From the NCBI GenBank assembly GCA_024645045.1, contig JAHEGO010000004.1, positions 1 through 59,805 of the forward strand: DNA of 59,805 bases, given 5' to 3'. The position numbers were made by a program, and so were the translations under genes. Source of the DNA: Sphingobacteriaceae bacterium. Its GTDB lineage: Bacteria > Bacteroidota > Bacteroidia > Sphingobacteriales > Sphingobacteriaceae. Below are positions 3,179 through 54,294 of this stretch, piece after piece (positions within the stretch are counted from its first letter, which is position 1; each line of letters starts with the position of its first letter). The notes below the pieces were generated by a model, which was given only the letters and a program-made list of their open reading frames with translations, did no database searches and was not told the DNA's origin.

Positions 3179-3193
3179 TTTTAGATAACGAAA

Positions 3194-3388
3194 ATGAAAT
3201 TTATAAATTATTTAACATCGATTGCAGGGGTATCAATTTTTCCTTTACTGTCACTTATGATTTTTGTAACATTTTTCGCAGTGCTTATCATTTATTTAAT
3301 TAAATCAGATAAAGCATCGATGGAAAAATTGGGAAATATTCCTTTAGAAAAAAATGATGATCAATTAAATTTTAGCAAATATGAATAG
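3194..3388 (+). CDS. ccoQ: cbb3 oxidase subunit IV-like protein (CcoQ)
   Basis: A 64-residue protein with a single membrane helix (about residues 13-37), followed by a short charged cytoplasmic tail. Length, topology and position between ccoNO and ccoP fit CcoQ/FixQ, a small subunit that stabilises the oxidase. Sequence conservation in this family is low, so the assignment rests largely on context. Its last eight bases overlap the start of ccoP, which implies translational coupling. Confidence 0.75.
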   Translation: MKFINYLTSIAGVSIFPLLSLMIFVTFFAVLIIYLIKSDKASMEKLGNIPLEKNDDQLNFSKYE

Positions 3389-5946: not shown

Positions 5947-6381
5947 ATGAATTGGGGAAATCGCATTTTATTACTCTATTTAGCTTTTGTAGCACTGATC
6001 ATTACATTGGTAGTAGTAAGTGTAAGGCAAAATATAGATCTGGTTGCGCCAGATTATTATGCTAAAGAATTGAATTTTGAAACAGATATTCAAAAAATGA
6101 AAAATGAAGCTGCTTTGGTTGAGAAGCCAAAAGTTTCATTAATTGATGGAAATATAAATATTGTTTTTCCTTCGATTTTTGCAAATAAAAACATAGAGGG
6201 GAAACTGCTCGTTTATAAACCTTCCGATGCCAAATCTGATTATACACAAACGATAGATTTAGCTAATGGTATGATCAACCTTCCTATAAAAGAATTTAGT
6301 GCCGGTATGCGAAAAGTAAAAATTGATTGGAAAGTAGATAGTATTTCTTATTTGACAGAAGCCGTAGTTGTAATCCCATAA
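5947..6381 (+). CDS. ccoH: FixH/CcoH family protein
   Basis: A 144-residue protein with one N-terminal membrane helix (about residues 5-27), the APDYYAKELNFE motif characteristic of FixH-like proteins, and a beta-rich exported domain. CcoH assists assembly or stability of the cbb3 oxidase. It lies between ccoG (5 bp) and the SafE-like gene (6 bp), which fixes the assignment. Confidence 0.85.
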   Translation: MNWGNRILLLYLAFVALIITLVVVSVRQNIDLVAPDYYAKELNFETDIQKMKNEAALVEKPKVSLIDGNINIVFPSIFANKNIEGKLLVYKPSDAKSDYTQTIDLANGMINLPIKEFSAGMRKVKIDWKVDSISYLTEAVVVIP

Positions 6382-6387
6382 ATACTT

Positions 6388-7095
6388 ATGCAATTAACCG
6401 CAGCATTGTTATTAGGTTTCTTGGGCAGCTTTCATTGTGTAGGTATGTGCGGCCCAATACTCATGTCTTTGCCGCAGAATCAAGAAAATAGCAGTACCAG
6501 ATTTTGGAAGCAACTTTTATATCATAGCGGCAGAATATCTGTTTATTTTATTTTTGGGTTGTTAATAGGATTGCTTGGTAAAGGATTTTTAATGATTCAG
6601 ATTCAGCAAGCCATGTCGATCGGATTTGGTATTATTTTATTATTAGTAACTGTATTTCCATTTGTTCTTCCAGATAAAATTAAGTCTTTTAACTTTTTTA
6701 AATTTTCTTGGTTTAGAAATAGCTTCACTCAATTAATCAATAGCAAAAAAACAATTGCTATTTATTTTCTTGGGTTCTTAAATGGATTACTACCGTGCGG
6801 ATTTGTTTATGTGGCATTAGCTGCAGCGGCCGTTACTGCAAGTCCAATGAATGCTGCTGGGTTTATGGCTTTCTTTGGTATTGGTACGGCACCAGCTTTA
6901 ATAATCTTAACTATGTTGGGAGCTATTGTTCAAGTTTCTATTCGAAATAAGCTCCGTAAAGTTTTGCCAGTTATTACCATTGTCGTTGCATTACTGTTAA
7001 TCTTAAGAGGATTAAATTTGGGCATTCCAATGTTGAGCCCTAAAATTAGCCATCAACATTCAAGCCCTGCACTAGATTGTTGCCACCGACCTTAA
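6388..7095 (+). CDS. TauE/SafE-like (DsbD_2-type) membrane protein of the cbb3 cluster
   Basis: A 235-residue, six-helix membrane protein. It begins with GFLGSFHCVGMCGP and has a second motif GLLPCGFVYVALA; these Cys-containing helices are typical of the UreH/SafE/DsbD_2 group found next to ccoI and ccoS in many genomes. The Cys pairs suggest a role in metal handling or thiol chemistry during oxidase assembly; this is inference from context. The His/Cys-rich tail (HQHSS...DCCHRP) could bind metal. It ends the cbb3 operon; no strong terminator is visible in the 61 bp before lpdA. Confidence 0.78.
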   Translation: MQLTAALLLGFLGSFHCVGMCGPILMSLPQNQENSSTRFWKQLLYHSGRISVYFIFGLLIGLLGKGFLMIQIQQAMSIGFGIILLLVTVFPFVLPDKIKSFNFFKFSWFRNSFTQLINSKKTIAIYFLGFLNGLLPCGFVYVALAAAAVTASPMNAAGFMAFFGIGTAPALIILTMLGAIVQVSIRNKLRKVLPVITIVVALLLILRGLNLGIPMLSPKISHQHSSPALDCCHRP

Positions 7096-7156
7096 AATCT
7101 ATCAATTTTCGTTTTTTTCGCTATTTCTTTCTTAATTTGGCCTAAAATTTAAGAAT

Positions 7157-8554
7157 ATGAAATACGATGTAGTTGTGATTGGGTCAGGCCCAGGTGGATA
7201 CGTTGCTGCTATCAGAGCAGCTCAATTAGGCTTAAAAACCGCAATCATTGAAAAATACGCAACCTTAGGTGGTACTTGTTTAAATGTTGGCTGTATTCCA
7301 TCTAAAGCATTATTAGATTCTTCTGAGCATTATCATAATGCGGCACATACATTTAAAACACATGGTATCGAATTATCAAATCTAAAAGCGAATTTATCGC
7401 AAATGATTAATCGTAAGAATGAGGTGGTAAAACAAAACACCGACGGGATTAATTATTTGATGAAAAAAAATAAGATTGACACGTTTCAAGGTCACGCTAG
7501 TTTTGTAAATAAAAATACCATTTTAGTTGATGGTCTAAAAAAGGCAACCATTGAAACAGATAAAGTGATCATTGCTACTGGTTCTAAGCCTAGTTCATTG
7601 CCATTTATTGAAGTGGATAAAAAAAGAATTTTAACTTCAACTGAAGCGCTAAACTTAAAAGAAATTCCTAAAAATTTACTTTTAATTGGCGGTGGTGTTA
7701 TTGGTTTAGAATTGGGATCGGTTTACGCAAGACTAGGTGCAAAGGTTACTGTTGTTGAGTTTGCGGATGGTATTATCCCAACAATGGATAAAGCATTAGG
7801 CAAAGAACTTCAAAAATCATTAAAGAAAATTGGCTTTGAATTTTTATTAAGTCATCAAGTTAAAAAAGTATCAAGCACTTCAAAAGAAGTAGTAGTTGAA
7901 GCGACAGATGCGACAGGTAAAACAATTTCAGTTAAAGGCGACTATTGCATTGTTGCTGTTGGAAGAACAGCTTATACCGAAGGATTAGGTTTAGAAAAAA
8001 TCGGCATTAAATTAGAAGAACGTGGTAAAAAAATTCCAGTGAACGATCATTTGGAAACTATAGTGCCAGGTGTTTTTGCAATAGGTGATGTAGTGAAAGG
8101 CGCAATGCTTGCACACAAGGCAGAAGAAGAAGGTGTTTATGTTGCGGAATTAATTGCGGGTCAAAAACCACATATTAATTATAATTTAATACCAGGTGTT
8201 GTTTATACCTGGCCAGAGGTTGCAGCGGTGGGTCAAACAGAAGAGCAATTGAAAGCTGCTGGTATTGCATACAAAATAGGCTCATTCCCTTTCCTTGCAA
8301 GTGGTAGGGCGCGTGCCAGTATGGATACAGATGGTTTTGTGAAAGTGATTGTAGATGCAAAATCTGATGAGATTTTAGGCGTTCACATGATTGGCCCAAG
8401 AGTTGCAGACATGATTGCGGAAGCTGTTGTTGCGATGGAATTCAGAGCCAGTGCAGAAGACATTGCTAGAATGAGTCATGCGCATCCAACATATACAGAA
8501 GTATTCAAAGAAGCTTGCTTAGCTGCAACTGGAAATAGAGCTTTACATATTTAA
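7157..8554 (+). CDS. lpdA: Dihydrolipoyl dehydrogenase (E3)
   Basis: A 465-residue flavoprotein disulfide reductase. It has the FAD-binding GSGPGGYVAAIRAAQLG, the redox-active disulfide C41-LNVG-C46, a second dinucleotide site GGGVIGLELGSVYARLG, and the C-terminal dimer motif HAHPTYTEVF carrying the catalytic His. It reoxidises lipoyl groups of 2-oxoacid dehydrogenase complexes and the glycine cleavage system. The length is normal. It is followed after 8 bp by murB, so the two are probably co-transcribed. Confidence 0.97.
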   Translation: MKYDVVVIGSGPGGYVAAIRAAQLGLKTAIIEKYATLGGTCLNVGCIPSKALLDSSEHYHNAAHTFKTHGIELSNLKANLSQMINRKNEVVKQNTDGINYLMKKNKIDTFQGHASFVNKNTILVDGLKKATIETDKVIIATGSKPSSLPFIEVDKKRILTSTEALNLKEIPKNLLLIGGGVIGLELGSVYARLGAKVTVVEFADGIIPTMDKALGKELQKSLKKIGFEFLLSHQVKKVSSTSKEVVVEATDATGKTISVKGDYCIVAVGRTAYTEGLGLEKIGIKLEERGKKIPVNDHLETIVPGVFAIGDVVKGAMLAHKAEEEGVYVAELIAGQKPHINYNLIPGVVYTWPEVAAVGQTEEQLKAAGIAYKIGSFPFLASGRARASMDTDGFVKVIVDAKSDEILGVHMIGPRVADMIAEAVVAMEFRASAEDIARMSHAHPTYTEVFKEACLAATGNRALHI

Positions 8555-8562
8555 CATAAACT

Positions 8563-9576
8563 ATGCAAATTCAAACTAATGTTTCTCTTTTACCATTTAA
8601 TACATTTAGGATAAATGTAAATGCGAAATATTTTGTTGAGGTTAAAAGCATAGTTGAATTGCAAGAAGTTTTAGCTTCGGATATTTGTAAGGAAAACAAA
8701 ATATTTGTGTTAGGCGGCGGAAGCAATTTGTTGCTAACAAAAGATTTCGATGGTTTAGTTATAAGATTAGGGATAAAAGGCATAACAGTCTGTGAGCAAG
8801 ACGGGGAAGTATTCGTAGAGGGTGGTGCAGCAGAAGTGTGGAACGATTTTGTTTCCTATTGTGTAGAAAAAGAATTCGCCGGTTTAGAAAACTTAACATT
8901 AATACCAGGCACTGTAGGTGCAGCACCCGTACAAAATATTGGCGCATATGGTGTAGAAATTAAAGATACTTTTCATTCTTTATTAGCTGTTGAAATAAAA
9001 ACAGGAATGTTAAAATCATTTAGTTTAGCAGAATGTAATTTTGAATACCGCGACAGTGTTTTTAAATCTGCTTTAAAAAATCAGTATATTATTGTTTCAG
9101 TAGTTTTTAAACTACAAAAAAATGCCGAGTTAAAATTAACTTATGGAGCCATACAAGATGAGTTAAAAAACAGAGGCATTGTAAATCCTACAATAAAAGA
9201 TGTAAGTGAAGTTGTGGCCAGCATTCGTGTGGCAAAACTCCCTGACCCAAGCACCATTGGGAATTCGGGTTCATTCTTTAAAAATCCAGTTATCAGCAAG
9301 GATGCTTTTCAGCAATTAATTTTAGCGTTCCCTGAAATGGTGAATTTTGCGCTACCAAATGGAAACTATAAGCTAGCTGCTGGATGGTTAATTGAGCAAT
9401 GTGGCTGGAAGGGAAAGCAAATTGGCAATGCCGGAACTTGGAAGAACCAAGCACTGGTGTTGGTAAATTGTGGTGGAGCAAGTGGACAAGAAATTTTTGA
9501 CTTCTCCTCGCTTATAATTCAATCTGTAAAAGAAAAGTTTGGCGTTATACTCGAGCGCGAAGTTAATATTCTATAA
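8563..9576 (+). CDS. murB: UDP-N-acetylenolpyruvoylglucosamine reductase
   Basis: A 337-residue FAD enzyme that reduces UDP-GlcNAc-enolpyruvate to UDP-MurNAc in peptidoglycan synthesis. Diagnostic segments are NTFRINVNAKYF near the N-terminus, the FAD-binding LGGGSNLLLTKDF, GLENLTLIPGTVGAAPVQNIGAYG, and IGNSGSFFKNP with the catalytic Ser. The size and the long C-terminal domain fit type I (E. coli-like) MurB. Co-directional with lpdA; the hairpin downstream has its T-run for the opposite strand, so it terminates csp rather than murB. Confidence 0.97.
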   Translation: MQIQTNVSLLPFNTFRINVNAKYFVEVKSIVELQEVLASDICKENKIFVLGGGSNLLLTKDFDGLVIRLGIKGITVCEQDGEVFVEGGAAEVWNDFVSYCVEKEFAGLENLTLIPGTVGAAPVQNIGAYGVEIKDTFHSLLAVEIKTGMLKSFSLAECNFEYRDSVFKSALKNQYIIVSVVFKLQKNAELKLTYGAIQDELKNRGIVNPTIKDVSEVVASIRVAKLPDPSTIGNSGSFFKNPVISKDAFQQLILAFPEMVNFALPNGNYKLAAGWLIEQCGWKGKQIGNAGTWKNQALVLVNCGGASGQEIFDFSSLIIQSVKEKFGVILEREVNIL

Positions 9577-37979: not shown

Positions 37980-41321
<3,342 letters not shown>

Positions 41322-41405
41322 TCCTACATTTGAAAGTATTGAAATTTCTGAAGAATTAGTACATTTAGATGTCTTTGGCTTTAAATTTTGAAGCAATATT
41401 TAAAA

Positions 41406-44400
41406 ATGAAAATTAACAAGGCATTATTTCTGGCTATTTATTTAATCATGAATATCTTTCTTAACAAGAGAGATGCGCATGCTTCGGTAACTATTGCACC
41501 AAGTTCATTATCACTTTGTCAGAATACCAGTGGCTTTTTTAGTGTTATCAATTCACAACCCGCAAGTTCAAATTATATTTGGCAAGATTCTACCACTTCA
41601 GGTTGGGTGAATATTACGAACAATACTTTTATTCAAGCAAACAGCGACACGCTTTATTTAAAAAATATCTCTACTGCATATAGTAATAAAAAATTTAGGT
41701 GTATAGTTGATTCCGCTGGAATGGGTTTGAAAAAAGACACAAGTGCGGCGGTTGTTCTAATTGTTTTTCCTGTTATGCCACATGGTTTATTAAATGGATC
41801 ACAAACGATATGCTATAACACAGCACCAGATACCATTCGCGCACTTAATTATCCAGTAAACGGATTGGGTTGGTATACATATCAATGGCAGATTTCAACA
41901 GATAGTCTTACCTGGACAAATATTTCTGGACAAACAACTGTAAAATTAAAATTAAATAAATTAACGCAAGATCAATTTATCAGAATACTAGCAACTACAA
42001 TTACAGGTTGCAAAAACGATACAAGCGATGTTATAAAATTAAATGTACTTGGTGTTTTAGTAAAGCCAATTATTAATGCTAGTCAAAGTATATGTTATAA
42101 TAGTATTGCAGATACAATTCGAGTGCAATCTTTAGCACAAGGTGGTGGAAATGTCTTTACTTACCAGTGGCAAAAATCGCTAAATGGCAGCACTTGGTCC
42201 GATGTGGTTGCTGCTACAGGTTTAAAGTATGCCCCTGGAATTTTACTATCCACAACTTATTTTCGCTTGAAAGCAATAGGAACAAAGGGTTGTGGTATAC
42301 TTATATCTGATTCAATTAAAGTAACTGTTTTCGGTGTTTTTAACCCTGGTGAGCTTAATGGGAATCAAACCATATGTTACAATACAATTCCAAATGCGAT
42401 TCAGTTTTTTACATTGCCAACTGGAGCGGGAACAAATTATACTTATCAATGGCAAGTTTCTACCGATTCCGTTAATTTTGTTGATTTTGCAAATTCAAAT
42501 GTTTTTTCATTTCAACCGAATAATTTAGCACAAACATTTTATTATCGTGTCCATGTGATTCCAAATACATCATGTGCTAACGGTTATACCAATATCATTC
42601 GTATAAAAGTTTATCCTTTATTTATTGGAGCCAGCATCAGCAAAAGTCAAATCATTTGCTACAATACATCTCCAGATACTATACGTATGTCAACCGTTCC
42701 TGTTGGCGGTAGTGGTGTTTACACATACCAGTGGCAACAATCTACAGACAGTATTAATTGGATCAATATCAATGGTCAAAATACCGCAAAATTAAAATTG
42801 CCTAATTTATTCCAAACAACTTACATCCGTTTATTTAATCAATGTAATGTTGGTTGTGGCATGCAAATTAGCAACGCAATCAAGATTAAAGTTTTCAGTT
42901 CGGTTTATACTAAACCAAGAATTACCCAAACGCAAAGTATTTGTTATAATACTATTCCAGATACATTAAGACTTCAAGCATATGCATCTGGTGCGGACAA
43001 CAAGTTTGTTTACCAATGGCAAAGTTCTATCAATGGTACTACTTGGATAGACGTAGCTGGTGCAACAGGATTATCTTATAAACCCGGTGTTTTAAAACAA
43101 TCTACATTTTATAGAATCAACGCCATTGCTACATTTGGCTGTAGGTCTATTGCTTCAGACTCCATTAAAATAACCGTTTATGATCAACTAGCAGCTGGGC
43201 AATTAAATAATAATCAGTCTATTTGTTATAATGGTTTTCCTGCCAGATTGCAATTTGCAATACCTCCATCTGGTGGCGGTGATGTATATGCATATCAATG
43301 GCAAATTTCCAGCGACTCTATTAATTATGTAAATATTAATGGAGCGCTTTTCGATAATTATCAACCTGGAAAATTAATACAAACTAATTTTTATCGGGTA
43401 AAAATAACTTCCATTAATGGTTGTGGAGAAGTCATCAGTGCAGCATTAAAGATTAAAGTATATCCAGTTTATAAAGGAGCTGAAATAAATGCTTCACAAA
43501 ATATTTGTTATAATTTAAGACCTAATAATTTAACACTTCGAACAGTACCTAGTGGAGGAGATGGCTATTATTTTTATCAATGGCAAATTGGGAAGTATGG
43601 CATTTGGTCAAATATAGATTCTGCAACAAAAGAAGTTTACATGCCTGAGCAAGTTAAAATGGAAACTTATTATCGCTTAATTAATTACGCAGGTTCAGGT
43701 TGCGGAAGAGATACTTCTAATGTTGTAAAAATAAGCGTATTGCCTTTGCCTGATACCACTCAAATTCTTGGAGTGACTACTGTATGCAGAAACCAACAAG
43801 AGGTAAGGTATGGTATGGCTCAAAGCAATTCTAATTATACTTATTTCTGGAGTACAAGTGGTGGTAAAATTGTCTCAAATCCAAGTGATCATGTTGTATA
43901 TATTAATTGGGGTTTGAGAGATGGTATAGATACCTTACGGTTAACTCAAATTAATAAATTGACTGGATGTTTGAATATAATAAAATTGCCCGTAAGAATC
44001 AAGTTTGGTCAAGCACCAACAAAATCTAAAATTCTTAGAAAAGAAAATTCTAATATTTTATTTTGTAGCGATTCTACTTTTGGTGTCGTATACCAATGGG
44101 GCTTCCTTACTAAAAGTAATAATATAGAAACAGACATTCCAAATGCTAATTTACGTTATGTAATGTTGCCGCATAATTTTGATACTACCTTATATGAATA
44201 TTATTTAAAAACCAGTTTAGGTGATTGCGAAACAAAAAGTTATTATAACAAAGCTAGTTTAACTGGAGTAGAGCTTACTAAATTTAATGGATTAGCGTTG
44301 TATCCTAATCCAACAACAGGCTTGTTAAATATTAGAAGTAATAGCGATGAAATTGAGACCATTAAGGTTTACGATCAACAGCTGCGCTTGTTAAGTATAA

Positions 44401-44525
44401 GAAATGCAATAGCTGCAAATAGTTATCAATTATCATTGGATTATTCTCCTGGCGTTTATTTTGTTGAGGTCAAGAATAAGCAATTGAGCAGTTTTTGGGC
44501 AAAAGTAATTTTAACGGGTAATTAG
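41406..44525 (+). CDS. T9SS-secreted protein of tandem Ig-like repeats
   Basis: A 1039-residue exported protein. After a signal peptide (to about residue 27) come eight Ig-like units, seven of them clear: about 94 residues each, with an N-terminal SICYN motif, a YQWQ core near position 31 and a second Cys near position 74. Units 2-4 are duplicated as units 5-7 (see repeat entries). A PKD-like region and a sorting domain (LALYPNPTTG) follow. It probably forms an extended surface rod or adhesin. The ATG at 41406 is chosen over an upstream TTG (41388) because it begins the signal peptide. It is followed after 5 bp by the outer-membrane-like gene and begins a packed run to 48453. Confidence 0.82.
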   Translation: MKINKALFLAIYLIMNIFLNKRDAHASVTIAPSSLSLCQNTSGFFSVINSQPASSNYIWQDSTTSGWVNITNNTFIQANSDTLYLKNISTAYSNKKFRCIVDSAGMGLKKDTSAAVVLIVFPVMPHGLLNGSQTICYNTAPDTIRALNYPVNGLGWYTYQWQISTDSLTWTNISGQTTVKLKLNKLTQDQFIRILATTITGCKNDTSDVIKLNVLGVLVKPIINASQSICYNSIADTIRVQSLAQGGGNVFTYQWQKSLNGSTWSDVVAATGLKYAPGILLSTTYFRLKAIGTKGCGILISDSIKVTVFGVFNPGELNGNQTICYNTIPNAIQFFTLPTGAGTNYTYQWQVSTDSVNFVDFANSNVFSFQPNNLAQTFYYRVHVIPNTSCANGYTNIIRIKVYPLFIGASISKSQIICYNTSPDTIRMSTVPVGGSGVYTYQWQQSTDSINWININGQNTAKLKLPNLFQTTYIRLFNQCNVGCGMQISNAIKIKVFSSVYTKPRITQTQSICYNTIPDTLRLQAYASGADNKFVYQWQSSINGTTWIDVAGATGLSYKPGVLKQSTFYRINAIATFGCRSIASDSIKITVYDQLAAGQLNNNQSICYNGFPARLQFAIPPSGGGDVYAYQWQISSDSINYVNINGALFDNYQPGKLIQTNFYRVKITSINGCGEVISAALKIKVYPVYKGAEINASQNICYNLRPNNLTLRTVPSGGDGYYFYQWQIGKYGIWSNIDSATKEVYMPEQVKMETYYRLINYAGSGCGRDTSNVVKISVLPLPDTTQILGVTTVCRNQQEVRYGMAQSNSNYTYFWSTSGGKIVSNPSDHVVYINWGLRDGIDTLRLTQINKLTGCLNIIKLPVRIKFGQAPTKSKILRKENSNILFCSDSTFGVVYQWGFLTKSNNIETDIPNANLRYVMLPHNFDTTLYEYYLKTSLGDCETKSYYNKASLTGVELTKFNGLALYPNPTTGLLNIRSNSDEIETIKVYDQQLRLLSIRNAIAANSYQLSLDYSPGVYFVEVKNKQLSSFWAKVILTGN
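41790..42635 (+). repeat. Higher-order repeat, first copy (Ig-like units 2-4)
   Basis: Three 94-codon units (846 bp). Unit 2 pairs with unit 5 (STDSLTW / STDSINW, KLKL), unit 3 with unit 6 (SLNGSTWSDV / SINGTTWIDV, ATGL), unit 4 with unit 7 (the SFQP / NYQP segment). Pairing at a distance of three units shows that a three-domain block was duplicated. Confidence 0.75.
42636..43484 (+). repeat. Higher-order repeat, second copy (Ig-like units 5-7)
   Basis: 283 codons (95+94+94) corresponding unit by unit to the block at 41790-42635. The protein similarity is moderate and the DNA has diverged, so the duplication is not recent. A further single unit (8) follows from 43485. Confidence 0.75.
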
Positions 44526-44530
44526 CATTT

Positions 44531-46108
44531 ATGAGAAAGTTTAAATCAATCTGCCTGTTATTTATTTTAAATCTGTTTTTGTATCAATTAGCAATTGCGC
44601 AAACCAATAGTGAATTGAAATTGAAAGCCATGCGATTCATTGATTATTATTCGGCTATAAATATCATTGAAGATAATGATGGTTTTAGGGCGTGTTTTAA
44701 AAACAGTCAAGTAACTATGCCCAATTTTATTATTCAACAAAACGCATATCAAGAAACCTTAACTCTTGACGAATATGTTTTCAAATACAATAATTTTGTT
44801 TATACAAAAGGTAATGCACCAACATTGCTGTCAGCTGTTCCTTTTGCTATTCGAATAGACACAGTCGATGCACAGAATTTAAGTTTTTCAATTGACGTTC
44901 AATTATACATAAGCGCTTTTAACAGCGATAAGCTAAAACTTACAGATACACTTGATATAAATTTTTCTTTAGATTATTTAATACAATCAGATGTTTTTAA
45001 AATATCTTCTATAACTCAAAATGTTGCAAGAGGAAAGTATTTAATTGTGAAAGCAATTCGAAAAAGGAATATATTCGATGGTTTTAAAAATCCTTCAGAT
45101 ACCTCTATCAATCAATTGTCACATTATGATTTATTGATTAATGGTAATATTTATAAAACAGATAGTAACGGAGCTGTTTATTTACGAGACATTCATTTGG
45201 CGAAAAAGCAAAGCATCAATATCAATACAGCAAATTTCGCAGACTTTGGAGGTCAGCGTTTTAGGTCAAATAGACTCAGAAGAATTTATTCAAAGCCTAA
45301 ACTGAACAACACTCAAGCTATTTTCTTTAGGAAACCAATATTTTTCTTAGAAAGTTATTTTGGGTTTAATTATTTTGTAGGTAGCAATGCTATTCAAAGT
45401 GCAAATTCAAGCATTGAAAATATTAATTTAAAAATAAATACAAAAGGGTTTGGTTTGGGTTTATTCCTATTTAATAAGAAAAAATGGGACATGACCTTAT
45501 CGGCGGGTTACGCAAATTATGCAATCGAAAATGCGAGTTATTTAAAAGAAGACATTAAGGTGGTTAATGCAATAGATCCAGATGGATCAAATTATGTTCG
45601 AATAAATACAATTTCAGAAATCAATGAATTTCAGCATTTAAGTTTCAACGCCATTGCTAGTAAATGGACTGTTGGCTTTAAGTTTAACAATAAAACAAAA
45701 TTAAACTTTAGTGTAAAAGCTGCGAAGAAAACCAGTGGTAATTTAGCTAGAGAAACAACTGCAAATGCACAATATAGTGGTTTCTATAAAGATTATTTTA
45801 ATGTTACAATAAGCGAAAATGGAGTATACGATTTTGGTAAGTTTCAATTAGAAGACACATCAAATTTAAGCCTCAATCAAGCTATTTCTTTCTATGGAAT
45901 TGGCATAGGCGTAGAGCAAAATGTAACTAAAAAAATAGCAGTAAATGTTGGATTAGAATGGTTGAAATCTAAAAGTGATTTGTTGATGCCTGAAAATAGA
46001 TTATTGAGCATTAGAAACGATCAATTGCAAAGTTTATTAACGATCAATGAAATTAGACATTATATTGCCTTTACAACTTTTCAAATTTCTTTAAAATATA
46101 AACTTTAA
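44531..46108 (+). CDS. Exported, probable outer-membrane protein of unknown function
   Basis: A 525-residue protein with a signal peptide (to about residue 23, AIAQ). The N-terminal ~230 residues include a small repeated-beta region (HYDLLINGNIYKTDSNGAVYLRDI). The C-terminal ~250 residues alternate aromatic and polar residues in strand-like fashion and end IAFTTFQISLKYKL, consistent with a beta-barrel. No family recognised. It lies 5 bp after the Ig-repeat gene and 3 bp before the next, so it may anchor or assist that secreted protein; this is inference from context. Confidence 0.65.
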   Translation: MRKFKSICLLFILNLFLYQLAIAQTNSELKLKAMRFIDYYSAINIIEDNDGFRACFKNSQVTMPNFIIQQNAYQETLTLDEYVFKYNNFVYTKGNAPTLLSAVPFAIRIDTVDAQNLSFSIDVQLYISAFNSDKLKLTDTLDINFSLDYLIQSDVFKISSITQNVARGKYLIVKAIRKRNIFDGFKNPSDTSINQLSHYDLLINGNIYKTDSNGAVYLRDIHLAKKQSININTANFADFGGQRFRSNRLRRIYSKPKLNNTQAIFFRKPIFFLESYFGFNYFVGSNAIQSANSSIENINLKINTKGFGLGLFLFNKKKWDMTLSAGYANYAIENASYLKEDIKVVNAIDPDGSNYVRINTISEINEFQHLSFNAIASKWTVGFKFNNKTKLNFSVKAAKKTSGNLARETTANAQYSGFYKDYFNVTISENGVYDFGKFQLEDTSNLSLNQAISFYGIGIGVEQNVTKKIAVNVGLEWLKSKSDLLMPENRLLSIRNDQLQSLLTINEIRHYIAFTTFQISLKYKL

Positions 46109-46111
46109 GTA

Positions 46112-46654
46112 ATGGGCAAAAAAGTTATATTATTTTTTACAATATTTTTTTGTTTAGCAAATTTGACAGTGAAATCGCAGACTGCAATTTATTATTTGGA
46201 TCAATCCAATTTATCAGATAGCATTTCGATTAAAAATTATTTCAATGAAATAGGAAGCAGGATTAAGCAAGATGCACATTTGTTTACTAGTTTGACAAAT
46301 AGACCTCAGTATTGTCAGGGCGCAGGCATTGACAGGTGTTTAGCGAGTCAACTTACTTTAAATAACTCAAATTCTTTCGGTGCAGACTCTTTTGCTTTGA
46401 ATTTAATGGTAAAAAAAGTAAATGAACTTATTAATCCAATCAACAATATTGATTTTTATTTTTTCCTGAATGCAGCGTCATTGAAAGACAATCGACTCAA
46501 TCAATTTATCAATCAATTGTTATTGGCTACGGATTTGTATGCAAACCCAAATACAACAGTTTATTTTTTATTAAAAGATCAAAAGCTTCAACAACAATTA
46601 ACTTTTTTAAAGACTAATAAAAACCACAAACAGTACCAGGTTAAATTTTATTGA
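46112..46654 (+). CDS. Exported protein of unknown function
   Basis: A 180-residue protein with a signal peptide ending VKSQ. The mature part contains two Cys (QYCQGAGIDRCLAS), possibly a disulfide loop, and is otherwise rich in Asn, Leu and Phe. No domain recognised. Spaced 3 bp after the outer-membrane-like gene and 1 bp before the small membrane protein, inside the same transcription unit. Confidence 0.6.
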   Translation: MGKKVILFFTIFFCLANLTVKSQTAIYYLDQSNLSDSISIKNYFNEIGSRIKQDAHLFTSLTNRPQYCQGAGIDRCLASQLTLNNSNSFGADSFALNLMVKKVNELINPINNIDFYFFLNAASLKDNRLNQFINQLLLATDLYANPNTTVYFLLKDQKLQQQLTFLKTNKNHKQYQVKFY

Positions 46655-46655
46655 A

Positions 46656-46916
46656 ATGTTAAAGGTATTAGTTAAAACCATCTTATATTTTGAGGCATTA
46701 TTGTTGTTGCCTTTTATAGCTAGTTTTCTTACTAAAGAGATTAATTGGTCGCTATTGGATTACATCATGATGGCATTACTTTTGGCTTTTTTTGCAACTG
46801 CAATTGTTTTCATTAAAAGTAAATTTGAAAATTTACTTGCAAGAAAAATTGCTATCATTATTATATTTTTAGTCTTTTTATTAATTTGGGCTGAATTGGC
46901 AGTCGGAATATTTTAA
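46656..46916 (+). CDS. Small three-helix membrane protein
   Basis: An 86-residue, very hydrophobic protein with three predicted membrane helices (about residues 5-25, 33-53, 64-84). No family recognised. Its start lies 1 bp after the preceding stop and its end 9 bp before the SRPBCC gene, so it is part of the operon. Confidence 0.6.
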   Translation: MLKVLVKTILYFEALLLLPFIASFLTKEINWSLLDYIMMALLLAFFATAIVFIKSKFENLLARKIAIIIIFLVFLLIWAELAVGIF

Positions 46917-46925
46917 CATATACAT

Positions 46926-47342
46926 ATGAAAAGAATAGTTGTAAAATCATTAATCAAGTCTAGTATTGCCCAGGTATGGGAGTGTTGGACAAATCCAGAA
47001 CATGTAATGAACTGGAATTTTGCTTCTCCAGATTGGTGTTGTCCCGAGGCAACTAACAATTTGCAGGAAGGTTCGGAATTTCATTATACCATGGCTGCTA
47101 AAGATCAATCAATGAGTTTTGATTTTTGGGGCACTTATCAGGAAATTTTAAAGCACCAAAATATTGAAATTATTTTAGGTGATGGCAGAAAAATGACGGT
47201 AACTTTTGAGTCTACAAACGATGGTGTAATAGTTACAGAATTGTTTGAACCTGAGTCTCAAAATCCAATTGAAATGCAACAAGCAGGATGGCAAATGATT
47301 TTGGATAATTTTACAAAATACGTAGCGGGATTATCAGTTTAA
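46926..47342 (+). CDS. SRPBCC (AHSA1/START-like) protein
   Basis: A 138-residue protein of the AHSA1-like START/SRPBCC fold: IKSSIAQVWECWTNPEHVMNWNFASPDWCCP at the N-terminus, FDFWGTYQEILKHQNIEIIL in the middle and GWQMILDNFTKYV at the end. These bind hydrophobic ligands in a cavity and are usually cytoplasmic; the function here is unknown. It precedes the AraC-type regulator by 1 bp, a common pairing in Bacteroidota. Confidence 0.85.
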   Translation: MKRIVVKSLIKSSIAQVWECWTNPEHVMNWNFASPDWCCPEATNNLQEGSEFHYTMAAKDQSMSFDFWGTYQEILKHQNIEIILGDGRKMTVTFESTNDGVIVTELFEPESQNPIEMQQAGWQMILDNFTKYVAGLSV

Positions 47343-47343
47343 T

Positions 47344-48453
47344 ATGAATTCAATATTACAACCAGCAGATAATTTAGAGTTGTTTGTCAGCTATCTTAAT
47401 CTTGTAACTATCGTATTAGGTAGCCTTGCTTTTTTTGATTTTTTAATAAAATTCAGAAGACCCTTAACTTTTAAGATATGCTATATTATATTAATTTCAA
47501 GTTTGCTTTATCTTGATATTTTATTTTGGTTGGACTTTACTTTTGCTGACATTTTGCAATATTCACCATTTATTAATTTTGGTATTTGGGGAGCGGGCTT
47601 GTATGCTTTGTCAATATTAAATTCAGGTAAAATTGAAAAGTGGGTATGGTGGAGCAGTGGTTTTATTTTTATACTCAATTTGAATAACTATTTCACGTTA
47701 ACTTCATTGAATACTACTAGCCATAATGGATATGTAGTTTTTTCGCTTCGATTAAAAGATCATTTAGATTTAATTAATATTACAAGGTATTTGCAGCGTT
47801 TTATCTTAATTTTTTCATTGTTTAAGCTGATAAAAACAATTAGGATTAATAAAGCTTTTAATAACTTATACCAATCTAAATTAGTTAATTGGGTAACGCT
47901 ATTTGTTGTGTTTACCTGTTGCTCAATTATTTTGAATGCAGTTATAACTAATTTGTTTTTTGCGAACAGTCATTATTTAAGCTTCTTATTTGTTTTGTAC
48001 AACTTGTTTTGCATTTCAGTTTTCTTATTGACCATTTATAGGCCTGCTTTTTTAAACAACCATGATATAGCAAAATTTGATTGGAAGAAGTTTAGCCAAC
48101 AAGATGCTCTTAAATTAGATGACCATAACTTTTACGCTCCTTTTTTTAGTAAATTTTATTATTTGAATAAAGAGGCTACCATTGAACATTTTTGTAAAGA
48201 AAATAACATTGAAGAAAAAGACATGTTCAATGAGCAAATCTTTAAATTATATCAAATGAATTTCAGTAATTTGATTAATAAAAAGAGGGTAGAATATTTT
48301 GTAGAGATTGCAAAAAACCCAAAATATGCACAATATTCAATTGAAGGGTTAGCTTTAGAAGCTGGTTTTAATTCTAGAACAGCACTATATAAGCCATTTA
48401 AAAAGTTTCATGGAGGTACGCCAATAGATTTAATTGAGTCTATAAGGCGTTGA
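47344..48453 (+). CDS. Membrane-anchored AraC-type transcriptional regulator
   Basis: A 369-residue protein. The first ~240 residues contain about six or seven membrane helices; the C-terminal ~110 residues are a DNA-binding domain, with the typical AraC second motif SIEGLALEAGFNSRTALYKPFKKFHGGTPIDLIE. Such proteins sense a membrane or extracytoplasmic signal and act on nearby genes. It is the last gene of the packed run and lies directly before the giant T9SS gene; the direct repeats at 48474-48500 are its likely binding site. Confidence 0.85.
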   Translation: MNSILQPADNLELFVSYLNLVTIVLGSLAFFDFLIKFRRPLTFKICYIILISSLLYLDILFWLDFTFADILQYSPFINFGIWGAGLYALSILNSGKIEKWVWWSSGFIFILNLNNYFTLTSLNTTSHNGYVVFSLRLKDHLDLINITRYLQRFILIFSLFKLIKTIRINKAFNNLYQSKLVNWVTLFVVFTCCSIILNAVITNLFFANSHYLSFLFVLYNLFCISVFLLTIYRPAFLNNHDIAKFDWKKFSQQDALKLDDHNFYAPFFSKFYYLNKEATIEHFCKENNIEEKDMFNEQIFKLYQMNFSNLINKKRVEYFVEIAKNPKYAQYSIEGLALEAGFNSRTALYKPFKKFHGGTPIDLIESIRR

Positions 48454-48473
48454 TAATCAATTGTCTCATTTTC

Positions 48474-48500
48474 TTAGACATCTTATTTATTTGTTAGACA
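48474..48500 (+). promoter_or_regulatory. Direct repeat, candidate AraC-type binding site
   Basis: TTAGACA at 48474-48480 and 48494-48500, each preceded by TTT[C/G], so 10 of 11 bases match. Spacing is 20 bp, i.e. two helical turns on the same DNA face, as for AraC-family sites. A degenerate inverted half (TGTCTCA, 48462-48468) lies just upstream. Confidence 0.5.
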
Positions 48501-48525
48501 CCCCATTTTAGCTTAACGCTTCTTT

Positions 48526-48555
48526 GTTGATTAAATTCATGAAAATTTAATCAAC
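48526..48555 (+). repeat. Perfect palindrome abutting the start codon of the giant gene
   Basis: GTTGATTAAATT - CATGAA - AATTTAATCAAC: perfect 12-bp arms, ending one base before the ATG at 48556. In mRNA this forms a hairpin directly at the initiation region; on DNA it could be an operator. Confidence 0.75.
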
Positions 48556-51500
48556 ATGAAAAAACTATTCTTCATTGTATTTTTTGCGCTTATTATTTCC
48601 AACGCTCAATCTCAAATAATAACCACTTTTGCTGGAAATGGCAGTAGTGGATTTAGTGGTGACAACGGACTTGCAACTGCAGCAAAAATTGGATTTCCTG
48701 GTAGAATTGCCATAGATGACACTGCCAATGTATATTTTGCAGATACCTATAACAATAGAATTCGCAAAATAAGTGCTGCTACAGGAATAATTACGACTGT
48801 AGCAGGTACAGGAACGGCTGGTTATAATGGAGATGGAGCTCTTGCTACTGCCTCACAATTAAATTACCCTTTTGGAGTAGCAGTTGACCATTCAGGAAAT
48901 ATATACATTGCAGATACCTATAACAATAGAATTCGTAAAATTTCTGCTACTACAAAATTAATTTCTACAATAGCAGGAACAACGTCATCTGGCTATAATG
49001 GTGACAATATTTCGGCTATTACTGCGCAATTAAATCAGCCTAACTCAGTTTGTTTAGATAATGCAGGAAACATTTATTTTACCGACCAGAGTAATAACCG
49101 AGTAAGAAAGGTTACAATTTCAACAGGAAACATTTCAACTGTTGCGGGAAGTGGTACTTCGGGTTATATGGGAGATAATGGCACTGCAATTTATGCACAA
49201 TTAAATTCGCCATCCGGAATTGCATTAGATGCCAATAATAACATTTACATCGCTGATTTAAATAACCATCGCATTAGGAAAGTTACCGTATCTACAGGGG
49301 TCATCACAACTATTGCAGGTAATGGAACGGGAGCTTATGTTGAAGACGGAGTTGCCGCAACGTTAACAAGTTTAAGTTTGCCGCAGGATGTTTTTGTGAC
49401 AACTGCAGGCCATGTTTTTATTGCTGATTATGGAAATGGCAGAATAAGAAAAGTCAATGCAAGTACTGGAATTATTTCAACAGTGGCAGGAGATGGAAGT
49501 GCATCATTTGCTGGAGATAATGGCCCAGCAACCAGTGCAAAATTTAATATGCCAATTAGTATTCGAGTTGATAATGCAGGAAATTATTTTATTTCAGATT
49601 ATTTTAATAGACGAATAAGAAAGGTTACGCAGCCTGTTTTTGCTAACAATACAATTAGTGGCGCACAAACTATCTGTGCAAAATCTTCGGCTACAATTTC
49701 TGGAACAATTCCAACAGGTTGTACAGGAGTAATTACATATACGTGGTTAAACTCTACTGTTTCTGCTACCTCTGGTTTTACGCCAATTGCAAATAGTAAT
49801 TCGCAAAATTTTACAACGACAAATTTAACACAGCATACATGGTATAGAAGATTGGCAAGTACTGCAGAATGTAGCGGTGATACGAGTAATGCAGTTTTGG
49901 TTTCCATTAATTTTCCTATTGGAAATAATGTAATTGGAAAGCCTGCAACAATTTCTAGAATTGCAGGTGATTACTATACAGATTTTGGTTTTTCAGGTGA
50001 TGGAGGAAACGCTCTGAATGCTCAGTTTTTTATTCCTATAGGAATTGCTGCTGATTCTGCTCAAAATATTTATATAGCAGATCAAAATAATAATAGAATC
50101 AGGAAAATAAATGCGACAACGAATGTGATCTCAACTATTGTTGGGGGTAGTTATTCAAATTACAATGGAGATAGTATTTTAGCTACAAGTGCAAATATTT
50201 ATCGACCTATAGGGGTGATACTTGATAGATTTGGGAATATTTATTTCGGAGACAGGAATAATAGAATTAGAAAAGTATCTAAATCTACAGGTTTAATTTC
50301 GACGATTGCCGGTACTGGTGTAGCTGGATTTTCTGGAGATGGTTTGCAAGCTAAAATTGCTACTATAAATAATCCGGCATTTTTAAATACAGATGCTGTA
50401 GGTAATATTTATTTTGTAGACTATAATAATAAACGAATTAGAAAAATAAATATTGCAACTGGTATTATAACTACAGTTGCCGGTACTGGTGTGGATTCAA
50501 GTGGGCCTAGTGGCTCACTTGCAACAATAACCAATATCATACCAACAGGTCTTGCAATAGACAAAAGTGGGAATATATATTTCTCAGAATCAATGAATAA
50601 CATTGTGAGAAAAATTGATGCTATCACAGGAGTTATTTCGACAGTTGCTGGAACAGGTGTGGCTGGGTTTTCTGGTGATGGAGGTTTTGCTATAAATGCT
50701 AAGCTGAATAGCCCTTATAGTTTGACTTTAGATAATATGGGTAATTTATTGATTGCAGATTATTTTAATATGAGGGTTCGAATGGTAAATTTAAAAAATG
50801 GCTTAATTCAAACAATAGCTGGGGGCGGGAACTATTCAATGGTAACTAATGCAGATCCACTTTCTGCTAGAATTGATGGTGTTTTAAGTTTAAACACCGA
50901 TTTTAATGGGAATATTTATTTATTAAAATATAATTCTAATGGTGTATATAAATTAAGCAATTTAACTAGTGAACAAACAATTTGTGCGGGAACTGTGCCC
51001 GATTCAATTGTTGCTTCTTTACCAATTGGTGGCAATGGAAGTTCCTATACCTATCAATGGTTGAAATCTACAACTAGTGCAACAACTGGTTTTACTGCTA
51101 TTACATCAAGTAATGGTAAAAACTATTCTCCAAGTGCATTGTCACAAACAACTTGGTTTAAAAGAGTAGTAACATCTGGCTCTTGTTTTTCGGATACGAG
51201 TATTGCTTTAAAAATCACTGTCCCAAATCCAATTACAAACAATACGATTACTAATGCAACTCAAATTATTTGTGCAGGTTCTGCGCCTAATACTATTACA
51301 GCATCTATTCCAACTGGCGGAATCAATACAGCATATAATTACACTTGGTTAAGTTCAACTAGCAGCGCAAGTTCTGGATTTACTGCAATAGCAAATTCAA
51401 ATACACAAAATTACTCGCCTGCTGTACTTTCGCAAAGTACTTGGTTTAAAAGAGCTGTTAGTTCAGGAGTTTGCGGATTCGATACAACAGCTGCAATTAA

Positions 51501-54294
51501 AATAATTGTTACGAATCCAATTACACTTAATACAATTACAAGTAATCCGCAAACGGTTTGCACAGGAAGTGTTCCATCGCAAATAATAGCAAGTCAGCCA
51601 ACAGGAGGTGATGGGGTAAACTATATTTATACTTGGTTAAAATCGACAACAAGCGCAAGTGCTGGTTTTACTTCAATTTCAGCCAGTAATGTGAAAAATT
51701 ATACTCCTGTTGCAATTACGCAAAACACTTGGTATAAAAGAGTGGTGAGTTCGGGTGCATGTGCTAATGATACTAGTGCTGCAATAAAATTATCAATAAG
51801 CAATCCAATTTCGAATAATGTAATTCTGTCAAGTTCACAAGTGATTTGTTCATCGACGATGCCTCCTCAAATTAATGCATCAGCAGCGGCTGGTGGTGAT
51901 GGAGTAAACTATACATATACGTGGTTAAAATCGACAACGAGCGCTTCTACTGGATTTACAGCAATAGTTTCAAGTAATGTTAGAAATTATTCTCCTACGG
52001 TAATTACGCAGAACACTTGGTTTAGAAGAGTAGTTAGCTCGGGTGTTTGTAACAATGATACAAGTGCTGCAATAAATATTTCAATTACTAGTCCAATTTC
52101 TGCTAACCAAATTACAAGTAATTCGCAAACGGTTTGCACAGGAAGTGTTCCATCGCAAATTAATGCAACACAGCCAACAGGAGGAGATGGCTTAAGTTAT
52201 AATTATACTTGGTTAAAATCGACAACAAGCGCAAGTGCTGGTTTTACTGCAATTACATCAAGTAATGTGAAAAATTATACTCCTGGTGCAACTACACAAA
52301 ACACTTGGTATAAAAGAGTGGTGAGTTCTGGCGCTTGTTCAAACGATACAAGTATGGCAATTAAAATTACGGTTACCAATCCAATTACAACTAACGCAAT
52401 TTTAAGTGGAACACAATCTATTTGCAGTGGAAGTTCGCCTTCACAATTTTATGCAAGTCAGCCATCTGGCGGAGACGGAGTAAATTATAATTATGTTTGG
52501 TTGAAGTCGACTACAAGTGCTACAAATGGATTCTCAGCAATTCAATCAAGTTATAGTATGCATTATTTACCTGGAGTAATTACCCAGAATACTTGGTTTA
52601 AAAGAGTGGTAAGTTCAGGTGCTTGTTTTAACGACACTAGTGCTGCACTATTAATAAGTGTTACCAATCCAATTTCATCAAATACAATTACAAGTAGTAC
52701 ACAAATAATATGCTCAGGTAGCATGCCTGCTCAAATAACAGCAAGTCAACCTGCAGGTGGAGATGGATTAAACTATAACTACACTTGGTTGTTTTCAACA
52801 ACAAATGCTTCAACAGGCTTTGTTGCAATTCAGTCAAGTAACACACAAAATTTTAACCCTGCCATAATTAACCAAGATACATGGTATAAAAGAGTGGTGA
52901 ATTCTGGATCTTGTGCTAGCGACACAAGTATTGCAGTTAAGATATCTGTAACTAATTCAATTTCTTCAAATAATATTATCAGTGCTCCGCAATCTGTTTG
53001 TATTGGAAGTATTCCTTCAGAAATTATTGCATCAAATCCAACAGGTGGAGATGGGTTAAGTTATACATATCAATGGATGAGTTCAACCGTTGGATCAAAT
53101 TCAGGCTTCAATATTATTGTAAATGCGAATTCAAAAAACTACTTCCCTACAGCATTAAATCAAGATACTTGGTTTAAAAGAATAGTTAGTTCTGGTTTAT
53201 GTATGAGTGATACAAGTAGTGTTTTAAAAGTTTCTGTAACAAATCCTATCAATAGTAATACCATTACAAATACTGCTCAAGTAATTTGTAAGGGGTCTAT
53301 GCCATTGCTTATTACTGCATCGATTCCAGCTGGTGGAGATGGAATAAATTATCAATACCAATGGTTAAGTTCAACTACAAATTCAACAACTGGATTTGTT
53401 GCGGTACCATCAAGTAACACACAAAATTTTCAGCCATCAATTTTAAACCAAAACACATGGTTTAAAAGAGTAGTTACCTCAGGGCTTTGTGCGGCTGATA
53501 CAACTGCCTCTGTAATTATTTTTGTAACACAGCCTGTCGCAAATAATCTAATAACATCTGCTACTCAAAATATTTGTGCAGGAAATCTTCCTTCAGAGAT
53601 TCTTGCGAAGAAACCAACCGGAGGCGATGGTGCTTTATATTTATACGAATGGCTAAGTTCCACTGTAGGTGCAGCTTCTGGATTTACAGTAATTCCTTCA
53701 AGTGGAACACAGAATTATATTCCAGGTATGTTAACGCAATCAACATGGTTTAAAAGAGTTGTAATTTCGGGTCCTTGTAATGCCGATACTTCTATGGCTG
53801 TTTTAGTTAAAATAGAAAAGAACCCTGCAAAACCGACTATTTCAGCAATTGCTGCGAATGAATTAAGCAGTTCATTAGCGCAAAGTTATCAATGGTATTT
53901 TAATAATAATGTAATTACAGGCGCAAATAATAGAAATTTAATCATTACAAAAAATGGAAACTATTCAGTAAAAATTGATAGTGTAAATGGCTGTAGTAAT
54001 TCGTCTAACCCTTATAATGTTAGTACATTAGGAGTAAATGAGCTTTCTAAAGATTCGAAAATTTCAATATATCCAAACCCTGCTACAAATGAAATCTTTG
54101 TTTCTTTAAATGCTTCTAATTTAATTGAAAATGCTTTAATAGAAATTTTTGATTTGAAAGGTGCAAAAATCTATAGCGAATCTCAGACATTGGATATAAA
54201 CAAGCCGTTAAAAATTGATCTTAAAGATTTGGTTAGTGGATTGTATTTTATAAGAATCAATCAACAAGCATTTAAGTTTGTAAAGGCTAATTAA
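48556..54294 (+). CDS. Giant T9SS-secreted NHL-repeat and Ig-like-repeat protein
   Basis: A 1912-residue exported protein: signal peptide (to about residue 20), an NHL beta-propeller block (about 22-360, units of the type GNIYIADTYNNRIRKIS...TVAG), one Ig-like unit (365-458), a second NHL block (about 465-800), ten tandem Ig-like repeats of exactly 96 residues (801-1760), a last Ig-like region, and a sorting domain beginning ISIYPNPATN. Each Ig-like repeat has conserved Cys10 and Cys77, probably a disulfide. It is probably a long surface fibre. The intact frame through highly similar repeats argues for selection. It lies 102 bp after the AraC-type regulator. Confidence 0.88.
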   Translation: MKKLFFIVFFALIISNAQSQIITTFAGNGSSGFSGDNGLATAAKIGFPGRIAIDDTANVYFADTYNNRIRKISAATGIITTVAGTGTAGYNGDGALATASQLNYPFGVAVDHSGNIYIADTYNNRIRKISATTKLISTIAGTTSSGYNGDNISAITAQLNQPNSVCLDNAGNIYFTDQSNNRVRKVTISTGNISTVAGSGTSGYMGDNGTAIYAQLNSPSGIALDANNNIYIADLNNHRIRKVTVSTGVITTIAGNGTGAYVEDGVAATLTSLSLPQDVFVTTAGHVFIADYGNGRIRKVNASTGIISTVAGDGSASFAGDNGPATSAKFNMPISIRVDNAGNYFISDYFNRRIRKVTQPVFANNTISGAQTICAKSSATISGTIPTGCTGVITYTWLNSTVSATSGFTPIANSNSQNFTTTNLTQHTWYRRLASTAECSGDTSNAVLVSINFPIGNNVIGKPATISRIAGDYYTDFGFSGDGGNALNAQFFIPIGIAADSAQNIYIADQNNNRIRKINATTNVISTIVGGSYSNYNGDSILATSANIYRPIGVILDRFGNIYFGDRNNRIRKVSKSTGLISTIAGTGVAGFSGDGLQAKIATINNPAFLNTDAVGNIYFVDYNNKRIRKINIATGIITTVAGTGVDSSGPSGSLATITNIIPTGLAIDKSGNIYFSESMNNIVRKIDAITGVISTVAGTGVAGFSGDGGFAINAKLNSPYSLTLDNMGNLLIADYFNMRVRMVNLKNGLIQTIAGGGNYSMVTNADPLSARIDGVLSLNTDFNGNIYLLKYNSNGVYKLSNLTSEQTICAGTVPDSIVASLPIGGNGSSYTYQWLKSTTSATTGFTAITSSNGKNYSPSALSQTTWFKRVVTSGSCFSDTSIALKITVPNPITNNTITNATQIICAGSAPNTITASIPTGGINTAYNYTWLSSTSSASSGFTAIANSNTQNYSPAVLSQSTWFKRAVSSGVCGFDTTAAIKIIVTNPITLNTITSNPQTVCTGSVPSQIIASQPTGGDGVNYIYTWLKSTTSASAGFTSISASNVKNYTPVAITQNTWYKRVVSSGACANDTSAAIKLSISNPISNNVILSSSQVICSSTMPPQINASAAAGGDGVNYTYTWLKSTTSASTGFTAIVSSNVRNYSPTVITQNTWFRRVVSSGVCNNDTSAAINISITSPISANQITSNSQTVCTGSVPSQINATQPTGGDGLSYNYTWLKSTTSASAGFTAITSSNVKNYTPGATTQNTWYKRVVSSGACSNDTSMAIKITVTNPITTNAILSGTQSICSGSSPSQFYASQPSGGDGVNYNYVWLKSTTSATNGFSAIQSSYSMHYLPGVITQNTWFKRVVSSGACFNDTSAALLISVTNPISSNTITSSTQIICSGSMPAQITASQPAGGDGLNYNYTWLFSTTNASTGFVAIQSSNTQNFNPAIINQDTWYKRVVNSGSCASDTSIAVKISVTNSISSNNIISAPQSVCIGSIPSEIIASNPTGGDGLSYTYQWMSSTVGSNSGFNIIVNANSKNYFPTALNQDTWFKRIVSSGLCMSDTSSVLKVSVTNPINSNTITNTAQVICKGSMPLLITASIPAGGDGINYQYQWLSSTTNSTTGFVAVPSSNTQNFQPSILNQNTWFKRVVTSGLCAADTTASVIIFVTQPVANNLITSATQNICAGNLPSEILAKKPTGGDGALYLYEWLSSTVGAASGFTVIPSSGTQNYIPGMLTQSTWFKRVVISGPCNADTSMAVLVKIEKNPAKPTISAIAANELSSSLAQSYQWYFNNNVITGANNRNLIITKNGNYSVKIDSVNGCSNSSNPYNVSTLGVNELSKDSKISIYPNPATNEIFVSLNASNLIENALIEIFDLKGAKIYSESQTLDINKPLKIDLKDLVSGLYFIRINQQAFKFVKAN
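49648..49929 (+). repeat. Isolated Ig-like unit between the two NHL blocks
   Basis: One unit of about 94 codons of the same type as the later array, with TICAK and AECSGDTSN carrying the Cys pair and an extra Cys in IPTGCTG. It separates the two propeller blocks and is more diverged than the array units. Confidence 0.7.
50956..53835 (+). repeat. Array of ten 288-bp tandem repeats (96 codons each)
   Basis: 2880 bp = 10 x 288 with no indel. Every unit keeps C10, GGDG-type loop, Y[TN]YTWLxST, a TW[FY]KR motif near 66-70 and C77. Units 3 and 5 of the array (from 51532 and 52108) share long identical DNA stretches 576 bp apart, showing recent exchange or duplication. Confidence 0.9.

Follow-up and report, generated by a model that had tools for sequence, protein, structure and literature searches.

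Seven open reading frames follow one another between positions 41406 and 54294 of the window, the 59,805-nucleotide stretch analysed here. This contig belongs to a genome bin of 1.83 Mb (G000), whose congeners are uncultured bins. A sequence-only reading had proposed that these genes form a single surface-adhesin system controlled by an AraC-type regulator. The question raised by this locus is whether one co-regulated system is present or whether distinct units lie side by side. To answer it, we compared gene order, domain content and intergenic sequences between the window and its relatives; all the functions discussed are deduced from sequence, and the seven genes, with the domains and sites mapped on or between them, are located on the forward (+) strand.

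Two modules and sporadic neighbours

The existence of the seven open reading frames, their sizes (1045, 525, 180, 86, 138, 369, and 1912 residues), their order, and the intergenic gaps of 1 to 9 bp (5, 3, 1, 9, and 1 bp, followed by 102 bp upstream from the 1912-residue giant) were confirmed on the sequence. Domain searches also confirmed that the 138-residue product is an SRPBCC protein (AHSA1 family, 67.1 bits), and that both giants carry a sorting domain of the type IX secretion system (T9SS) and Ig-like repeats. Three proteins (525, 180, and 86 residues) had been described as lacking a recognisable family, and none of them matched a Pfam-type or NCBIfam model above its cut-off. An OmpL-like BBP2 porin gene that was absent from the sequence-only reading (positions 40233 to 41321) is located 84 bp upstream from the Ig-protein gene and is syntenic in two relatives. 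This porin gene is intact in G000, G001, and G005; a remnant matching its first 54 residues is present in G004 (locus L014, positions 8553 to 8717), apparently following a deletion.

Comparison with the congeners divides the seven genes into two modules and passengers. Module 1 (41406 to 46654), hereafter the core, comprises the genes for the Ig-repeat protein, the 525-residue outer-membrane protein (OMP), and the 180-residue exported protein. Module 2 (47344 to 54294) comprises the AraC-type regulator gene, the 102-bp gap with its repeat, and the gene for the second secreted giant. Two congeners, G004 and G005, have module 1 complete; in two others, G001 and G002, contig ends interrupt it. 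In G005, the three core genes are followed by a convergent AhpC/multicopper-oxidase pair. An AHSA1 gene follows the core in G002, and an 86-residue gene plus an AHSA1 gene in G004. Among the core loci, only those of G000 and G004 showed the gene for the 86-residue three-helix membrane protein (46656 to 46916), whereas the AHSA1/SRPBCC gene (46926 to 47342) was observed in G000, G001, G002, and G004. Both are sporadic.

A single seven-gene system under AraC control would account for the tight packing in the window and for contig 71 of G001, in which the core, AHSA1, AraC, and NHL-giant genes are also contiguous. Tight packing on its own is an ordinary operon feature. The 86-residue gene is present in two of the five core genomes, and the AraC and giant genes follow the core in two only, being absent downstream from it in G002, G004, and G005. 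The G002 ortholog of the regulator lies at another locus, upstream from a different giant, which argues against common control. In addition, the conserved repeat described below precedes the giant only, and the domain characteristic of the OMP-linked protein is missing from this giant. We therefore regard a single seven-gene system as improbable. What exceeds chance at this locus is the adjacency of the Ig-protein and OMP genes, which is kept across genera and families.

The Ig-repeat protein and its outer-membrane neighbour

The first gene of module 1 (41406 to 44525) encodes a secreted protein of 1039 residues if translated from the ATG codon at position 41406, a likelier start than the TTG codon at position 41388 from which the 1045-residue frame was listed. 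Seven repeats opening with Q-x-I-C-Y-N, preceded by a divergent first one, can be read from the sequence. Repeats opening with Q-x-[IV]-C are found in both giants, about eleven of them in the 1912-residue protein. Ig_7 domains were detected in both proteins, PKD_6 in the first (43755 to 43889), and NHL in the second. Both end in a type A C-terminal sorting domain (CTD) scoring above the TIGR04183 cut-off of 23 bits (32.6 bits for the Ig protein, in which Por_Secre_tail spans positions 44298 to 44510, and 38.6 bits for the second giant).

A pre-CTD domain of about 80 residues (44019 to 44261), located between PKD_6 and the CTD, is the best-conserved part of the Ig protein within the genus (identity per 50 residues of 0.85 to 0.89 versus 0.38 to 0.45 for the CTD). 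A profile of this domain matched 7 of the 11 genomes searched, in each case in the Ig protein encoded next to the OMP. One copy was found in each of G000, G002, G004, G005, G177, and G345; G001, with its pair of OMP loci, gave two. The profile was built from the same proteins and therefore matches them by construction, so that only the lack of additional copies in the 11 genomes is informative. The profile search did not detect the domain in the 1912-residue giant, in G027, where the contig is cut at the relevant place, or in the three genomes of family f54. Genomes with the pair encode dozens of type A proteins (60 CTD matches in G000, 74 in G027, 70 in G345, and 130 in G177), and the pre-CTD domain was nevertheless found only in the Ig protein that adjoins the OMP. 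The two giants had been noted to share one kind of Ig-like repeat; the domain that distinguishes the OMP-linked protein is not shared by the second one.

The product of the 525-residue OMP gene (44531 to 46108) had been described as a probable outer-membrane protein, a view supported by a predicted barrel. The structure model is modest (mean pLDDT of about 61). Its N-terminal part (residues 25 to 170, positions 44603 to 45040), predicted to be periplasmic, resembles NTF2-like domains over about 120 to 135 residues (Z of about 12 to 13), with no sequence match to the NTF2-like family. The C-terminal part (residues 271 to 525, positions 45341 to 46105) is predicted to form an 8-stranded barrel (271 to 523 in the model) closest to OprF and OmpA (Z of about 15). 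Chains of FadL were present among the weak Foldseek matches of this model, which itself is 8-stranded and OmpA-like. The window OMP did not match PF13568 (OMP_b-brl_2), and its relative in G345 scored 28.3 bits for a cut-off of 27. A SprF/PorP (TIGR03519) or FadL-type identity was considered, but the OMP gave no family match, while three true members of TIGR03519 score above the cut-off elsewhere in G000.

If an OmpA topology is assumed, extracellular loops 2 and 3 hold the motifs AIDPDGSNYVR and SENGVYDFG (45812 to 45838 for the latter). Of the 15 barrel residues that are invariant in six sequences drawn from three families, 13 are located in these two predicted loops, which cover 78 of the 255 barrel positions (hypergeometric p of about 6 × 10–6, an optimistic value since the regions were drawn after seeing the motifs).

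Searching a class sample of 395 genomes with an OMP profile produced matches in five genomes, G000 included, two of these being weak and partial. The matches in G272 and G117 were attributed to chance (58 positions inside frames of 1863 and 1482 residues), and a match in G779, a short piece lying where a contig ends, was left out. The OMP is encoded by four of the five congeners and by one other genus of the family. In the latter (G027), the contig opens partway through a type A tail scoring 39.1 bits, followed by genes for an OMP with 25% identity to that of the window and for an exported 194-residue protein. In G345 (family f53), an Ig protein with the pre-CTD domain, distributed over several frames, precedes an OMP located at the contig end. 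The order is reversed in G177 (family f39), where an exported 186-residue gene and then the OMP gene precede the gene for a 1245-residue Ig protein. The sorting tail of the latter remained just below the cut-off (20.4 versus 23 bits) in a contig stretch containing N gaps, and the NTF2-like domain was not seen in the G177 OMP.

Two side observations concern the assemblies. The split Ig-repeat gene of G345 (locus L028, positions 6361 to 9258) contains near-identical repeats and may reflect either an assembly error or a genuinely broken or phase-variable gene. The G001 bin contains two versions of the Ig-OMP locus (L015 and L013, on contigs 65 and 71); the OMP fragment on contig 65 is 99.7% identical to the G005 OMP, indicating strain mixing or a second copy.

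Every clear relative of the OMP, in families f1, f39, and f53, thus lies next to a T9SS protein with Ig repeats or a type A tail. Since type A CTD genes represent a few per cent of all genes, chance adjacency in all these lineages appears very unlikely. Weaker relatives consisting of a barrel of about 280 residues directly follow type A giants in three genomes of family f54 (group g82; G699, G710, and G589). These observations bear on the possibility that the OMP, a porin or stress-type barrel in that case, has no relation to the Ig protein and only shares its operon. PF13568-type barrels do form a broad family, and the OMP model resembles generic small barrels. The company kept by all clear relatives in three families, and by the 280-residue barrels of G699, G710, and G589, nonetheless makes an unrelated barrel a poor explanation, to which we assign little weight.

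The third core gene (46112 to 46654) encodes the 180-residue exported protein. Its model (pLDDT of 78) has a vWA-like fold (Foldseek E value of 3 × 10–4, Z up to 9.3). The DxSxS motif of the metal-ion-dependent adhesion site (MIDAS) is missing: its first strand is YYLDQSNL in the window protein, versus YYLSKANI and FYLGESNK in relatives. No sequence relative was detected when the remaining 394 genomes of the class sample were searched, and comparison with the exported proteins encoded beside the OMP in G027 and G177 gave hhalign E values of 0.22 and, with a low probability, 6 × 10–4, respectively. The latter proteins are therefore considered as positional counterparts only. The proposed link between the 180-residue protein and the adhesin is supported within the genus, where this protein accompanies the OMP; outside the genus, no relative can be recognised by sequence. 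Of the three family-less genes for which a neighbourhood search had been suggested, the 525-residue gene gave clear relatives that all lie beside Ig or type A T9SS proteins, but the 86-residue gene proved sporadic. The suggestion that the barrel and the exported protein anchor or mature an adhesin is accordingly reasonable as far as the OMP is concerned, its relatives in the three families being neighbours of such proteins.

The AraC-type regulator and the second giant

The regulator gene (47344 to 48453) encodes a membrane protein in which an AraC-type helix-turn-helix (HTH) is recognisable (E value of 1.3 × 10–5), but the match falls below the curated cut-offs (25.8 versus 33.6 bits for HTH_18 and 17.0 versus 26.6 bits for HTH_AraC). 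A genus-wide search detected close orthologs (67 to 68%) in G001 and G002 only. The 102-bp gap separating this gene from the gene for the 1912-residue NHL/Ig type A protein (48556 to 54294) has the same length in G000 and G001, and the first 102 bp downstream from the G002 regulator gene are 98% identical to the G001 gap. Between G000 and G001, the gap is less conserved (68% identity) than the AraC gene (76%). Within this diverging gap, the TAGACA repeats of a candidate operator (TAGACA-N13-TTAGACA, 48475 to 48500) stand out in the alignment as conserved blocks. A pattern search of seven genomes located this sequence once in each of G000, G001, and G002, always between the AraC gene and the giant, and not in G003, G004, G005, or G027. 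With the pattern reversed as a control, none of the seven gave a hit. The G001 and G002 regions are near-identical and count as one copy, so that about two independent copies are available overall. The repeat was not found upstream from the Ig protein.

A 13-bp inverted repeat (48525 to 48556) abuts the start codon of the giant. It was not matched in any of 2000 mononucleotide shuffles, and its RNA fold gave z scores of –3.4 in the window and of –1.2 and –0.8 in relatives. One stem pair is altered on both sides between G000 and the relatives. This element could possibly be a translational hairpin or a second operator.

In G002, the AraC ortholog and its near-identical control region are located on another contig (C128; locus L051, positions 2493 to 3790), 128 bp upstream from a different giant, a PATR-repeat protein of more than 830 residues whose C-terminus is cut off. 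By our own reading, the sequence upstream from this AraC gene resembles the 3' end of AHSA1, with no intact gene, suggesting that the regulator and its control region were copied or moved in front of another giant. A gene for a protein with a PID-CTERM sorting domain (33.4 bits for a cut-off of 26; L051, positions 3924 to 4301) lies just upstream from the relocated AraC gene. Distant relatives of the regulator (27 to 31% identity) in contig C46 of G002, in G004, and in G005 are not immediately followed by a giant gene in the same orientation, so the pairing of regulator and giant appears limited to the close ortholog group.

Module 2 is most likely a local regulator-target pair, and control of module 1 by AraC is not supported. 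From the repeat and its occurrence at a single site per genome, we infer that the regulator would bind the TAGACA repeats of this gap and would thereby control the giant encoded downstream.

Proposed roles and known systems

We propose, with a probability of about one in two, that the locus consists of two adjacent units, an adhesin with its own docking complex at the outer membrane, and a local AraC switch over a second giant. According to this proposal, the Ig protein would be exported by the T9SS via its type A CTD. The OMP would be a small outer-membrane barrel with its best-conserved residues in predicted extracellular loops 2 and 3, and these loops may hold the adhesin, most likely through the pre-CTD domain. 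The NTF2-like domain and the vWA-like 180-residue protein would form a periplasmic base. Physical contact, anchoring, and the periplasmic complex are in this respect what we infer from the linkage, the domain content, and the conservation and distribution of the pre-CTD domain. In plain terms, three genes of these lake bacteria probably specify a long adhesive protein of the cell surface, together with a membrane barrel to hold it and a helper located underneath; next to them, as an independent unit, a switch gene precedes the gene for a second giant surface protein.

The main alternative is a transient role, the OMP and the 180-residue protein being assembly factors that assist the folding or release of the Ig protein, or adjust its export, without providing a lasting anchor. 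In favour of this role, binding is a common task of NTF2-like and vWA-like domains. Type A cargo is, moreover, normally anchored through A-LPS, which makes a permanent protein anchor unnecessary (PMC9143113). Conservation is however concentrated in the predicted extracellular loops rather than in the periplasmic domain, and we consider an assembly role to be possible but rather doubtful.

The docking proposal has a broader implication, which we put forward tentatively: some type A adhesins may have a private outer-membrane receptor (an NTF2-like domain plus a small OmpA-like barrel, with a vWA-like partner) that recognises the pre-CTD domain. This would be a third anchoring route in the T9SS, in addition to A-LPS attachment for type A (PMC9143113) and SprF/PorP binding for type B proteins (PMC12618676). 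Type A substrates are known to be collected by the general shuttle PorV and to require no partner of their own, which counts against the docking proposal (PMC12618676, PMC10994853). Our literature search, whose coverage mostly excluded subscription papers, gave no article describing an OMP partner of this kind for type A cargo, and NTF2-like domains were not mentioned in the top papers of a further search. The prevailing view is that a single general route serves all type A proteins; if the proposal is true, cargo-specific carriers or anchors would extend beyond type B, and the pre-CTD domain would serve as a marker of privately partnered type A proteins. The AraC unit, for its part, is compact and may serve as a switch for a giant of the cell surface.

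The latter unit resembles membrane-bound AraC-type regulators by its multi-helix N-terminal part, its C-terminal HTH_18-type domain, and its tandem candidate half-sites about 20 bp apart. Unlike them, it has a candidate site found just once in a genome, and its regulator lies beside a different giant in a relative.

For module 1, three comparisons are relevant. PorV collects type A CTD cargo from SprA (PMC10994853), and the Ig protein carries such a CTD; PorV is general, whereas the locus encodes an additional OMP that would be private. The PF13568 barrels of f54 g82 directly follow a type A giant, which in G699 and G589 contains SprB repeats as well as Ig repeats, as the related OMP does here, but they comprise about 280 residues, lack the NTF2-like domain, and are accompanied by proteins in which the pre-CTD domain was not detected. 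The closest parallel in organisation is provided by SprB-SprF and PG1035-PorP-PorE, which combine a type B substrate, a cognate 14-strand OMP, and the periplasmic protein PorE (PMC12618676, PMC9143113, PMC12635249). In these sets, the type B substrate has its private carrier and anchor in the SprF/PorP-type protein (PMC12618676, PMC9143113), and a Cys-X-Cys tail ties SprF to GldK (PMC12635249). In module 1 also, a surface-protein gene adjoins its own OMP gene and that of an exported partner. In contrast, the substrate has a type A rather than a type B CTD, and the OMP, which does not belong to TIGR03519, is predicted to be 8-stranded with an NTF2-like domain and ends in ISLKYKL without a Cys-X-Cys tail. 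The 180-residue partner is vWA-like, unlike PorE. The type A substrate, the distinct OMP family, the missing tail, and the apparently smaller barrel therefore place module 1 outside the SprB-SprF/PorP group. By analogy, it is likely to be a dedicated surface anchor or assembly partner comparable to SprB-SprF-PorE and built from different folds.
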